Below the pieces are notes generated by a model. The model saw only the letters and a list, made by a program, of their open reading frames with translations. It did not search any database and was not told where the DNA came from. DNA of 64,000 bases from Pseudomonas protegens CHA0 (lineage in GTDB: Bacteria > Pseudomonadota > Gammaproteobacteria > Pseudomonadales > Pseudomonadaceae). The position numbers and the translations under genes are program-made. Shown here one piece after another: positions 2 through 5,205 of the stretch. The stretch lies in the NCBI RefSeq assembly GCF_000397205.1, contig NC_021237.1:311001-375000 (forward strand), in the 5' to 3' direction. Each line of letters opens with the position of its first letter. The stretch's first letter is position 1.

Positions 2-184
2 GAGGGGCTGCAAAACAATCACCACGCATTCCCTGCCTGGTACCGGCATGGCGTGCACTGGTGGGAGCCCGACCTGTCGGGCTGGACACTGGCGTTAATG
101 GGCAAGCTGAGACTGGTCTCAGACCTGCGTTCCCCGTCCCAGGCAATGATCGACAAAGTCCGCAAGCGCCAGGCCTCGTCCTGA
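2..184 (+). CDS. Fatty-acid desaturase, C-terminal end (cut by window start)
   Basis: Only the last 60 residues are in the window; the start lies to the left. The fragment opens with EGLQNNHHAFP, the third histidine box of delta-9 type membrane acyl desaturases (NNHH ligates the di-iron centre), and ends with a basic tail. The stop is 52 bases before the acyl carrier protein gene, so it belongs to the same plus-strand operon. With the downstream carrier protein and second desaturase it probably acts on a carrier-bound fatty acyl chain during polyyne formation; that role is inferred from context. Family call is firm, exact substrate is not known. Confidence 0.8.
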   Translation, partial: EGLQNNHHAFPAWYRHGVHWWEPDLSGWTLALMGKLRLVSDLRSPSQAMIDKVRKRQASS

Positions 185-236
185 AACGCCCAATCGGCTG
201 ATCGTATTAACCACCTCACTCATCAAGGAAGATCCT

Positions 237-557
237 ATGTCCAATTTCATCTCCAATTTGCTGAGCACTCTGAGCTTCTCAGAGAAAAAACAGGCGGCGG
301 TCGAACTCAACGAGGACAGCATCAAGCATTGGCTGGTGCAGAAGATGGGCGCGCTCTTGAAGATCGATCCTTCCCAGGTCGATACCGCCCGCAGCTTCGA
401 GTCCTACGGCCTCGATTCGCTGGTAGCGGTGAAAGTGGCGGGTGACCTGGAGAAGTTCATGGAGCAGCGCCTGTCGCCGGCCCTGCTGTTCGAATACTCC
501 AGCATCGATGACCTGTCCAAATACCTGGCCAATGAACTGACCACATCCGAAGTTTGA
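237..557 (+). CDS. Stand-alone acyl carrier protein
   Basis: 106 residues. The 4'-phosphopantetheine attachment motif is visible as YGLDSLVAVKV, with Ser61 as the modified residue. It is longer than the ~78-residue housekeeping AcpP because of an extra N-terminal stretch of about 25 residues. The start has a good ribosome site (aaggaa, 6 bases before ATG). It sits between two desaturase genes (18 bases before the next), so it most likely carries the fatty acyl chain through successive desaturations as a dedicated carrier. In known polyyne clusters such a carrier is loaded by a fatty acyl-AMP ligase, whose gene would lie left of this window. Confidence 0.9.
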   Translation: MSNFISNLLSTLSFSEKKQAAVELNEDSIKHWLVQKMGALLKIDPSQVDTARSFESYGLDSLVAVKVAGDLEKFMEQRLSPALLFEYSSIDDLSKYLANELTTSEV

Positions 558-575
558 CTTCGCAGGAGCTTGGCC

Positions 576-2592: not shown

Positions 2593-2790
2593 ATGAGCAC
2601 CTACGCTGAAAACGCTGTGGCCGAGTCCGGCCTGTGGATGTGCCTGATCTGTGGCTGGATCTACGATCAACGCCTTGGCGATCCGGATTCGGGGGTGCCT
2701 CCGGGCACCGCCTGGGACGACATTGCCGAGGATTGGACCTGCCCGGAATGCGGCGTGAGCAAGTTGGACTTCAACATGGTGAAGCTGTAG
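2593..2790 (+). CDS. Rubredoxin
   Basis: 65 residues with the two rubredoxin knuckles C18-x2-CG and CPECG, and the typical DPDSGVPPGTAW stretch between them. It binds one iron in a four-cysteine site and carries single electrons. It starts 37 bases after the desaturase/hydrolase fusion, so it is the likely electron donor to the di-iron desaturases of this operon. Rubredoxin genes are a known companion of polyyne clusters. A reductase for it is not obvious here; the dihydrolipoamide dehydrogenase two genes downstream is the only flavoprotein in the operon. Confidence 0.93.
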   Translation: MSTYAENAVAESGLWMCLICGWIYDQRLGDPDSGVPPGTAWDDIAEDWTCPECGVSKLDFNMVKL

Positions 2791-2827
2791 CCCAGCGCTT
2801 GAATTCTGTAGTCGATGAGGAAGGAAG

Positions 2828-3754
2828 ATGGCGACCCAAGAGCCAAGGCCGGCACCTGCCAGGGGCCGGCGCAACAGCTTCAGGAAGATGCTCTTCAAGG
2901 GCATTTACAACGGAGTTCTGGGGCTGCTTCGCTGCAGCTTCTGGATCGAGTCGCGGCTTTTTCCCCAGCGCGCTGCAGCACGGGCGCTGAAGATGTTCAC
3001 GACGCCACAACGGCTGCGCCAGCATTTTCCGCAGACCTTGCCCAGCGCCACGGTGCAGGACCTGGAAACCGACCAGGGGCGCCTGCGCTGCTTTCGCTGG
3101 ACTCCACCGCAGGTCCGGCGCCGCGTGGTGCTGGTGCACGGTTGGAGTGGCGCCAGCACCCAGTGGCAGTACCTGATCCCGCTGTTGCTGGAGGAGGGCT
3201 GCGAGGTCCTCTCCTTCGACTGCATCGGCCATGGCGGCAGCGGCGGTCGGCAGGCCTCGCTGCCGACCTTCGTCAGCATGCTCGACCAGGTGCAAAAGCA
3301 ACTGGGGCCCTTCGACACCGTGATTGGTCACTCCCTGGGCGGCGCTGCCGCCGGGTATGCCTTGAGCACTCCGGTCGGCAAGGGTTTCCAGCGGGCGGTC
3401 CTGGTGGCCGCGCCGGCCGATATCGAAAACGTGGTCCGGCGCTTTGCCGCATTTTTGTGGATCAACGATGACGTCAGGCAACGCATGCAACTTCTGGTTG
3501 AGCAACGCTATCAGAAGGACATGGCCAGCCTGGCGGTCAGCCGTTATGGGCGCCAGGTGGAGGTCCCGGTGCTGCTGGTGCATGACCAGCAGGATCAGGA
3601 AGTCCCGGCAGATGACCTGCAATCCTTCGCCGAAGGCTTGCGACACCGGCGGGTCTTGCAGACTCGCGGGTTGGGCCATCTGAAAATTCTCAAGGACAGC
3701 GCGACCATGGAGGCCGTGGTCGAGTTTGTCTGTGCAAAGGACGGCAACCTATGA
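2828..3754 (+). CDS. Alpha/beta hydrolase
   Basis: 308 residues. Alpha/beta hydrolase fold with HGWSGAS (oxyanion region), nucleophile S169 in GHSLGG, acid near D256 and H284 in GLGHLKIL. The N-terminus is basic with a hydrophobic stretch (about 22-40), so it may be membrane associated. Its motif spacing and wording closely resemble the hydrolase half of the upstream fusion (HGWG, AHSLGG, GLGHVRIL), suggesting the two are paralogues in the same operon. A gaaggaag ribosome site precedes ATG 2828. The end overlaps the next gene by 4 bases. Substrate unknown; a thioesterase or a hydrolase acting on the finished acyl product are both possible. Confidence 0.82.
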
Positions 3755-5205
3755 GTGAAAGTTACGATGTGATCGTTATTGGTGCGGGGCCCGGCGGCTA
3801 TGTCGCCGCCATCCGGGCCGCGCAACTGGGGCTCAAGACAGTCTGCATCGAGCGCTACAAGGGCAAGGATGGCAAGACCGCCCTGGGCGGGACGTGCCTG
3901 AACGTTGGCTGCATTCCCTCCAAGGCACTGCTGGACAGTTCCCACCACTACTACGAAGCGCGCAACGGATTCGAAGTGCACGGCATCGCCATCAGCAATC
4001 CGCAGATGGATGTGCCAGCCATGCTGGCGCGCAAGGACAACGTGGTGCGCAATTTCAACGGCGGCATTGCCTCGCTGTTCAAGGCCAATGGCGTGGCCCT
4101 GCTGGAAGGTCACGGCAAGCTGCTGGCCAACAAGGAAGTGGAAGTCACCGCCGCCGATGGCAGCACGCAACGCATCAGCGCCGGCAATATCATCCTGGCT
4201 CCCGGCTCGCGGCCGATCGACATTCCCGCGGCGCCCCTGGCCGGCGAGGTGATAGTGGACTCCACCGGCGCCCTGGAATTCACCCAGGTGCCCAAGCGCC
4301 TCGGGGTGATCGGTGCCGGCGTCATCGGCCTGGAACTGGGGTCGGTCTGGGCACGCCTGGGGGCTGAAGTCACGGTGCTGGAAGCCCTCGACAGCTTCCT
4401 CCCGGCGGTGGATGCGCAGATCGCCAAGGAGGCGCAGAAGATCCTCGGCAAGCAGGGCCTGGATATCCGCCTGGGCGCCCGGGTGACGGCCTGCGAAGTG
4501 CAGGGCGACAGCGTCAAGGTCAGCCTCAGTGAGGCCGGCGAGGACAAGCAGCAGGTGTTCGACCGGCTGATCGTCGCCGTCGGTCGCCGCCCCCTGACCA
4601 CCGATCTGTTGGCCGCCGACAGCGGCGTGCACCTGGACGAACGCGGTTTTATCCACGTCGATGGCCAGTGCTGCACCAGCGTCCCCGGGGTGTTCGCCAT
4701 TGGCGACGTGGTACGCGGCCCGATGCTGGCGCACAAGGCTTCTGAAGAGGGGGTGATGGTGGCCGAGGGGATTGCCGGGCATCGGCACCCGTTGAACTAC
4801 GACCTGATCCCCTCGGTAATCTACACCCACCCGGAAATCGCCTGGGTCGGCCAGACCGAGCAGGCTCTCAAGGCCGAGGGCGTCGAGTTGAACATCGGCA
4901 CCTTCCCGTTCGCTGCCAGCAGCCGGGCCATGGCGGCCAACGACACCGCCGGGCTGGTCAAGGTGATTGCCGATGCAGGCACCGACCGCGTGCTGGGCGT
5001 GCATGTGATCGGGCCGGGCGCGGCGGAGCTGGTTCAGGAAGGGGCCATCGGCATGGAGTTCGGCACCAGTGCCGAGGACCTGGGGATGATGGTGTTCTCC
5101 CATCCGACCCTGTCCGAAGCCCTGCATGAAGCCGCGCTGGCCGTGAATGGCCAGGCGATCCATATCGGCAATCGCAAGAAGAAAGCCCCCGCCGGCGTCA
5201 AATAG
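3751..5205 (+). CDS. Dihydrolipoamide dehydrogenase (E3), accessory paralogue
   Basis: 484 residues. FAD site [10 protein letters not shown] at residues 11-20, redox disulfide C49-LNVG-C54, NAD site [10 protein letters not shown], and the catalytic H451/E456 pair in HPTLSEA near the C-terminus. It oxidises protein-bound dihydrolipoamide with NAD+ in 2-oxoacid dehydrogenase complexes. No E1 or E2 genes are adjacent; instead its start overlaps the hydrolase stop by 4 bases (ATGA), so it is translated with the desaturase operon. It resembles the stand-alone Lpd3-type paralogues of pseudomonads rather than an lpdG next to sucAB. Possible roles are a spare E3 or electron supply to rubredoxin; neither is shown by sequence. 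Confidence 0.88.

Follow-up and report, generated by a model that had tools for sequence, protein, structure and literature searches.

A dihydrolipoyl dehydrogenase gene inherited with the pgn polyyne cluster of Pseudomonas protegens: a candidate for self-protection

Introduction

In Pseudomonas protegens CHA0 the protegencin/protegenin (pgn) polyyne cluster, which runs from the regulator gene pgnC through pgnD to pgnJ (Table 1), is followed by lpd, a gene for an extra dihydrolipoyl dehydrogenase (E3), and we show here that lpd is inherited with the cluster. We also show that two relatives, G061 and G360, lost the biosynthetic genes yet kept an intact and constrained lpd. The DNA in question occupies positions 2-5205 of a window of 64,000 bases (G000:C1:311001-375000) in a genome that forms a single contig of 6,867,980 bases, and it is very probably the 3' part of the pgn cluster. 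The cluster is already known, and what was not found in print is its terminal E3 gene. The words "lipoamide" and "dehydrogenase" do not occur in the main text of PMC8406139, nor does "dehydrogenase" in that of PMC12016544, cluster figures lying outside the scope of this search, and a text search whose scope excluded figures and most subscription papers found no paper linking an extra E3 to polyynes. The inactivation described in the part of PMC11009677 available to us concerns orfamide, not a polyyne. As to what lpd does, we tentatively propose a part in self-protection, and the evidence on both sides is set out below together with the alternatives.

An Extra E3 Distinct From the Housekeeping Enzyme

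An earlier note on this DNA, made from its letters alone, had recognised a flavin disulfide reductase at the end of the run and had left its identity open; the gene is there, and its product is by family a lipoamide dehydrogenase, outside the seven-gene polyyne core. Lpd scores 530.3 bits against TIGR01350 (cut-off 408.8), the next family listed reaching 332 bits and falling under its own cut-off, and it has the redox motif CLNVGC (CxxxxC) at residue 49 and HPTLSE (His-Pro-x-x-x-Glu) at residue 451, so that family membership, redox cysteines and His-Glu dyad of an E3 are all present. The housekeeping E3 of the same genome, LpdG (C1:1946881-1948317), is 75% identical to it (478 residues as against 484). 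Pseudomonas LpdG is the E3 of pyruvate and oxoglutarate dehydrogenase, with solved relatives 5u8u, 1lpf and 3lad, and the active-site motifs of Lpd are those of the LpdG structure 5u8u.

Two other uses within the cluster have to be weighed against this family assignment. One is a different kind of protection, in which the extra E3 reduces or traps the polyyne or takes part in a general redox stress response. We regard this as unlikely: the disulfide reductase superfamily does include mercuric and hypothiocyanous acid reductases, and retention after cluster loss, described below, fits any protective role, but E3 is the best family by far and the degree of identity with LpdG favours an E3 reaction. 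The other is that Lpd is a biosynthetic redox partner, an NADH-dependent reductase feeding the rubredoxin and the desaturases, which we find quite improbable. It is true that translation of lpd comes directly after that of the rubredoxin and the hydrolase, and in E. coli the yield is reported to fall when the rubredoxin of the massilin cluster is lost (PMC9098870). However, Lpd scores as a lipoamide dehydrogenase and has both motifs of one, the rubredoxin-binding family PF18113 is not among its 14 Pfam families (E <= 0.001) and is encoded elsewhere in the genome (one match, C1:6726601-6726813), lpd survives in G061 and G360 after their loss of the cluster's rubredoxin and desaturase genes, and in three rubredoxin-bearing polyyne clusters the stretch read contains no lpd.

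In pgn-bearing genomes Lpd is an extra E3. All five other pgn-bearing Pseudomonas genomes searched have one E3 at 86-96% identity to Lpd and one at 75%, and the best E3 match in the Billgrantia genome stands at 62%; this search covered six genomes (the five Pseudomonas and Billgrantia), the genome of locus L010 being left out. The idea that Lpd is a recent duplicate of LpdG within P. protegens was rejected, the pgn Lpd proteins forming a separate clade outside all 34 LpdG in the tree. These 34 comprise 28 of the 30 best-scoring loci, that is, those closest to the pgn E3, and six more; the other two of the 30 are pgn-type E3s.

Comparison of the two groups, with eight distant relatives of the tree left aside, gave 16 group-specific sites, invariant within each group and different between them, four of which fall at residues 98-103. 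Clustering as tight was seen in 78 of 20,000 uniform draws and in 351 of 20,000 draws from variable sites, the 6-residue width having been chosen post hoc. The residue of the Billgrantia E3 is found in the pgn E3 at five of the 16 sites and in LpdG at seven. Part of the difference between Lpd and LpdG therefore arose in LpdG, since at five sites it is LpdG that departs from the Billgrantia enzyme and the pgn E3 that resembles it; V98, one of the four clustered sites, is itself the Billgrantia residue. Arg93 and Phe99 have been named for the lipoamide channel of a mycobacterial E3 (PMC10739260), and any link from residues 98-103 to that channel would be conjectural.

Inheritance of lpd With the Cluster

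Scanning genome contigs for PgnH turned up seven loci besides the CHA0 locus itself, six in Pseudomonas and one in Billgrantia. pgnJ and lpd overlap as ATGA in all seven pgn-bearing Pseudomonas loci, the lpd start lying inside the last codon of pgnJ, and in CHA0 a Shine-Dalgarno-like AAAGGA is located inside the end of pgnJ. In P. asturiensis pgnC to pgnJ and lpd stand in a different setting, without the HlyD, MFS, aldo/keto reductase (AKR) and taurine-type dioxygenase (tauD) genes at the locus; the contig ends 344 bases past the last matched lpd codon. Between the CHA0 locus and P. asturiensis the synonymous divergence (dS) of lpd is 1.34, that of the genes from pgnC to pgnJ 0.82-1.95 and that of LpdG 0.77, a value in which codon bias may play a part alongside history. 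The nonsynonymous divergence (dN) of lpd (0.080) and LpdG (0.083) gives no separation. For these and the later dN/dS pairs a filter on length and stops dropped some comparisons, leaving pgnF compared with P. asturiensis alone. The dN/dS pairs do not include L012, and they include L010 and L013 for lpd only. To the left of pgnC in P. asturiensis (L014:2894-4299) short transposase-like fragments were seen by eye, a hint at how the cluster moved.

This E3 is rare in the genus, being found in eight of 398 Pseudomonas genomes (E <= 1e-246). In a sample of 149 genomes searched for E3 at E <= 1e-150, a single one was found in 146, two each in the CHA0 genome and in G061, and three in G090, whose equal-score matches are perhaps an assembly effect. 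The protein collection (8000 candidates scored) holds four clusters at 86-93% identity to Lpd, followed by a gap to 79%. In lpd we have a second copy of a housekeeping enzyme that is co-inherited with the cluster.

It could be argued that lpd is a bystander and was already present where the polyyne genes happened to land, considering that it persists without pgn in two of the eight genomes having it and lies outside the seven-gene core as published (PMC8406139). We consider this highly improbable, and the candidate was largely refuted. In P. asturiensis, too, lpd follows pgnJ, lpd and the pgn genes are alike in synonymous divergence, and 390 of the 398 genomes are without this E3 at the same threshold. 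Moreover, both pgn-free genomes carry remnants of pgnJ, and G061 also the neighbouring pump genes, which points to losses and not to an older state.

Retention of lpd After Cluster Loss

PgnH is present in six of the eight genomes with this E3 (CHA0 and five others) and was not found at E <= 1e-60 in G061 and G360. The G061 locus reads AKR, HlyD, MFS, the last 28 codons of pgnJ, lpd and tauD; that of G360 reads AKR, a scrambled stretch with short weak MFS matches, about 16 pgnJ codons, lpd and tauD. lpd is intact at 484 codons in both, and the ribosome-binding sequence AAGGA in the end of pgnJ is preserved in each. The two E3s are sisters (support 100/96) nested in the pgn-Lpd clade, and with this nesting, the pgnJ remnants and the pump of G061 in view, the absence of pgn as an older state of these genomes was rejected. 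The dN/dS of lpd is 0.087 between G061 and G360, 0.057-0.072 between CHA0 and five other pgn-bearing loci, and 0.10-0.11 between each orphan and FD6.

The same loci bear on the HlyD/MFS efflux pair left of pgnC, which might itself be the means of self-resistance and lpd a fitness add-on. The authors of PMC12016544 proposed the transporter PFL_0259 for testing, and the pair seems confined to the pgn locus: the MFS gene occurs in two of 119 Pseudomonas genomes (E <= 1e-150), CHA0 and the pgn-free G061, both of which have lpd, and G061 has kept pump and lpd together. However, the pump is absent from the P. asturiensis locus, to which the search was confined and where pgn and lpd are both present, and G360 lost the pump from its locus and keeps lpd. 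On balance we judge this explanation to be on the unlikely side.

A Proposed Role in Self-Protection

Among the uses weighed for lpd, a protective role is our best guess as the one that fits best. What we put forward, tentatively, is that the producer protects itself with a second copy of a thiol-active enzyme: the extra E3 would keep pyruvate and oxoglutarate dehydrogenase running while the polyyne alkylates the thiols of LpdG. The catalytic cycle of E3 passes through a free dithiol, and because of this E3 is, from its chemistry, a plausible polyyne target. A more specific version is offered just as tentatively, namely that protegenins alkylate the thiols of lipoamide dehydrogenase, that Lpd is a less sensitive or dose-raising protector, and that it is kept in non-producers against polyyne-making neighbours.

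The closest precedent is the massilin cluster of Massilia sp. YMA4, in which a polyyne core is likewise accompanied by a further copy of an enzyme of housekeeping type whose thiol is reactive (PMC9098870). There the enzyme is an acetyl-CoA acetyltransferase (thiolase), MasL, whereas here it is a lipoamide dehydrogenase. The polyyne is reported to modify the active cysteine of MasL covalently, and structure and overexpression identify MasL as both the target and, when overexpressed, the protector (PMC9098870). Protection has thus been demonstrated for massilin, with C16 polyynes, whereas for pgn, with C18, it is only inferred. No thiolase domain was found in the ten Pfam-scanned proteins of the CHA0 locus, and PMC12016544, as far as its text was available to us, describes the P. 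protegens cluster as being without a MasL-type thiolase and states self-resistance and the bacterial target as open.

Several observations weigh against self-protection by lpd. E. coli making polyynes without masL is reported to grow normally (PMC9098870), and protegenins were tolerated by five of 11 further strains, including P. putida KT2440 (PMC12016544); because of this, inhibition of an ordinary E3 is not a general lethal effect. No lpd was found in the stretches read of three non-Pseudomonas polyyne clusters, those of Billgrantia (L015, L106), Streptomyces (L098, the one examined of seven given by a PgnH search of plasmid records) and G922 (L105). The redox and His-Glu motifs of Lpd are those of ordinary LpdG, with nothing obvious for resistance, and in the P. 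protegens group dN/dS is higher in lpd (0.06-0.11) than in LpdG (0.009-0.024). Retention in the orphans may also count as one event; although their breakpoints differ, they are sisters, and may go back to a single loss that was followed by decay. Part of the constraint on their lpd may also predate the loss. Lastly, dS between G061 and FD6 is 0.46 for AKR, 0.21 for lpd and 0.19 for tauD, the left side of the locus being more divergent than the right, and recombination across it may have occurred.

Identity of the Cluster and Its Gene Run

Six features had been claimed at positions 2-5205 in one plus-strand run with short gaps (the end of a desaturase, a stand-alone acyl carrier protein, a desaturase-hydrolase fusion, a rubredoxin, a hydrolase and the reductase), and all six were confirmed in their places; the gaps from pgnF to lpd are, in order, 52, 18, 37, 37 and -4 bases. 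Chance is excluded, because every gene of the run has a Pfam match above its cut-off and the same run is kept in six further Pseudomonas loci. The earlier note had also expected a ligase and other desaturases just left of the window. The DNA left of position 1 bears this out, with a fatty acyl-AMP ligase (FAAL), a desaturase and the rest of the second desaturase all present there, accompanied by an AraC-type regulator.

The view that this is probably a polyyne locus gains support in turn, the polyyne core being present with the full seven genes published for it: a FAAL of the JamA type, three desaturases (PgnE, PgnF and PgnH), a stand-alone acyl carrier protein, a thioesterase, supplied by the alpha/beta hydrolase half of PgnH (PF00561), and a rubredoxin. 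Two features are of the pgn type, the didomain PgnH and the AraC-type PgnC beside pgnD. Since these core features are found here, the cluster is pgn and already known, and its gene functions match, including the didomain PgnH; the note was right to call the system already described in P. protegens and not wholly new. The pgn cluster with its didomain PgnH has been described in P. protegens Pf-5 and CHA0, and protegencin is reported to be lost on deletion of pgnD (in Pf-5 and CHA0) and of pgnE, pgnF or pgnH (in Pf-5) (PMC8406139). PgnC and GacA activate pgn, and protegenins are antibacterial (PMC12016544). The gene set reported for Pf-5, CHA0 and Cab57 is identical (pgnC, the FAAL gene pgnD, pgnE, pgnF, the didomain pgnH, rubredoxin and acyl carrier protein; PMC8406139, PMC12016544), and the biosynthetic part seen here shows no difference from it. 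The caryoynencin, collimonin, cepacin and ergoyne clusters have a common seven-gene polyyne core, which as published there is without an E3 gene; the desaturase and thioesterase of caryoynencin are separate genes (cayE and cayF), unlike PgnH (PMC8406139).

The individual biosynthetic steps are inferred from the gene families. PgnD would load a C18 fatty acid onto the carrier protein PgnG, and the membrane desaturases PgnE, PgnF and PgnH would then convert single bonds to conjugated triple bonds with electrons from the rubredoxin PgnI. The acid (protegencin/protegenin) would be released by the hydrolase half of PgnH and possibly also by PgnJ, which distantly resembles the C-terminal half of PgnH (about 25-29% across the Pseudomonas loci).

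Table 1. Features of the pgn locus of CHA0 and its flanks. L009 is the stretch left of the window (L009 position = window position + 11000). Families are from Pfam and NCBIfam profile matches unless named by eye.
Feature	L009 position	Window position	Strand	Length (aa)	Basis or remark
FMN monooxygenase	606-1934				profile match
Aldo/keto reductase (AKR)	2084-3121				by eye
HlyD	3217-4404		-		profile match
MFS	4482-6077				profile match
Divergent HlyD/MFS pair	3217-6077	-7783 to -4923			beside pgnC
pgnC, AraC-type regulator	6092-7165		-		divergent from pgnD
pgnD, fatty acyl-AMP ligase (FAAL)	7429-9291	-3571 to -1709	+	620	PF00501 E 2.9e-65 (L009:7429-9288)
pgnE, desaturase	9288-10196	-1712 to -804	+	302	PF00487
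pgnF, fatty acid desaturase	10228-11184	-772 to 184	+	318	PF00487 E 2.4e-22 (full frame)
pgnG, stand-alone acyl carrier protein		237-557	+	106	PF00550 (PP-binding) E 2e-14
pgnH, desaturase-thioesterase/hydrolase fusion		576-2555	+	659	PF00487 E 3.8e-32 (residues 69-316); PF00561 (Abhydrolase_1) E 3.1e-13 (residues 443-562)
pgnI, rubredoxin		2593-2790	+	65	PF00301 E 9.8e-21
pgnJ, alpha/beta hydrolase		2828-3754	+	308	PF00561 E 1.1e-17
lpd, extra dihydrolipoyl dehydrogenase (E3)		3751-5205	+	484	TIGR01350
GC-rich inverted repeat CCCCGGCC...GGCCGGGG then TTTG		5213-5243	+		3' of lpd, by eye

Some entries of Table 1 call for comment. Several fatty-acid--AMP ligase models are among the best NCBIfam matches of PgnD, and among those listed none is above its own cut-off. 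The ATG of pgnF lies at L009:10228, and the part of the gene inside the window (2-184) is its 3' end. pgnH may begin at ATG 576 (659 aa) or at TTG 570 (661 aa), the nearest public protein having 659 aa. The inverted repeat behind lpd was seen by eye only and was unflagged by the computed scan; it is a possible end of the transcript. To the right of lpd, on the minus strand of window 5263-9000, tauD comes first and then genes for an ABC permease, an ATPase and a binding protein, all named by eye. tauD adjoins lpd in seven of eight protegens-group loci, the exception being L012, where about 2.6 kb separate it from the lpd end.

Polyyne Clusters in Other Genomes

PgnH was found in the CHA0 genome only among 369 genomes of the class at E <= 1e-80 and among 249 Pseudomonas genomes at E <= 1e-60, and in the CHA0 genome and G922 among 398 genomes of the phylum at E <= 1e-80. 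In G922, from the same class, the stretch L105 (G922:C1:1253001-1272000) holds a polyyne core in which desaturase and thioesterase are encoded separately. An MFS gene is present there too, along with what looks by eye like a Rieske-type oxygenase, and there is no lpd match in 19 kb. In Billgrantia kenyensis a pgn-like polyyne cluster is split across two contig ends (L015:66-3981; L106 = G251:C13:1-6000). One contig carries the regulator (54% identity), FAAL (61%) and PgnE (72%), the other PgnF (74%), the acyl carrier protein (69%), the PgnH fusion (67%), the rubredoxin (67%) and a hydrolase. The protein collection also holds PgnH-like fusions from an unclassified Sphingomonas (73%, on a 4.1-Mb contig) and from Gynuella (61%) (P0124, P0130), as well as several further PgnH-like proteins at 64-71%. 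Gynuella and Pseudomonas are the genera named for a gammaproteobacterial polyyne clade in the text of PMC8406139 available to us.

Implications for Protegenin Biology

The terminal E3 offers a further specific candidate for protegenin self-resistance, beside the transporter PFL_0259 (PMC12016544). Should the proposed role prove true, the bacterial target of protegenins would be named, together with the missing self-resistance gene of P. protegens, and lpd would serve as a marker for non-producing relatives that are tolerant of polyyne makers.

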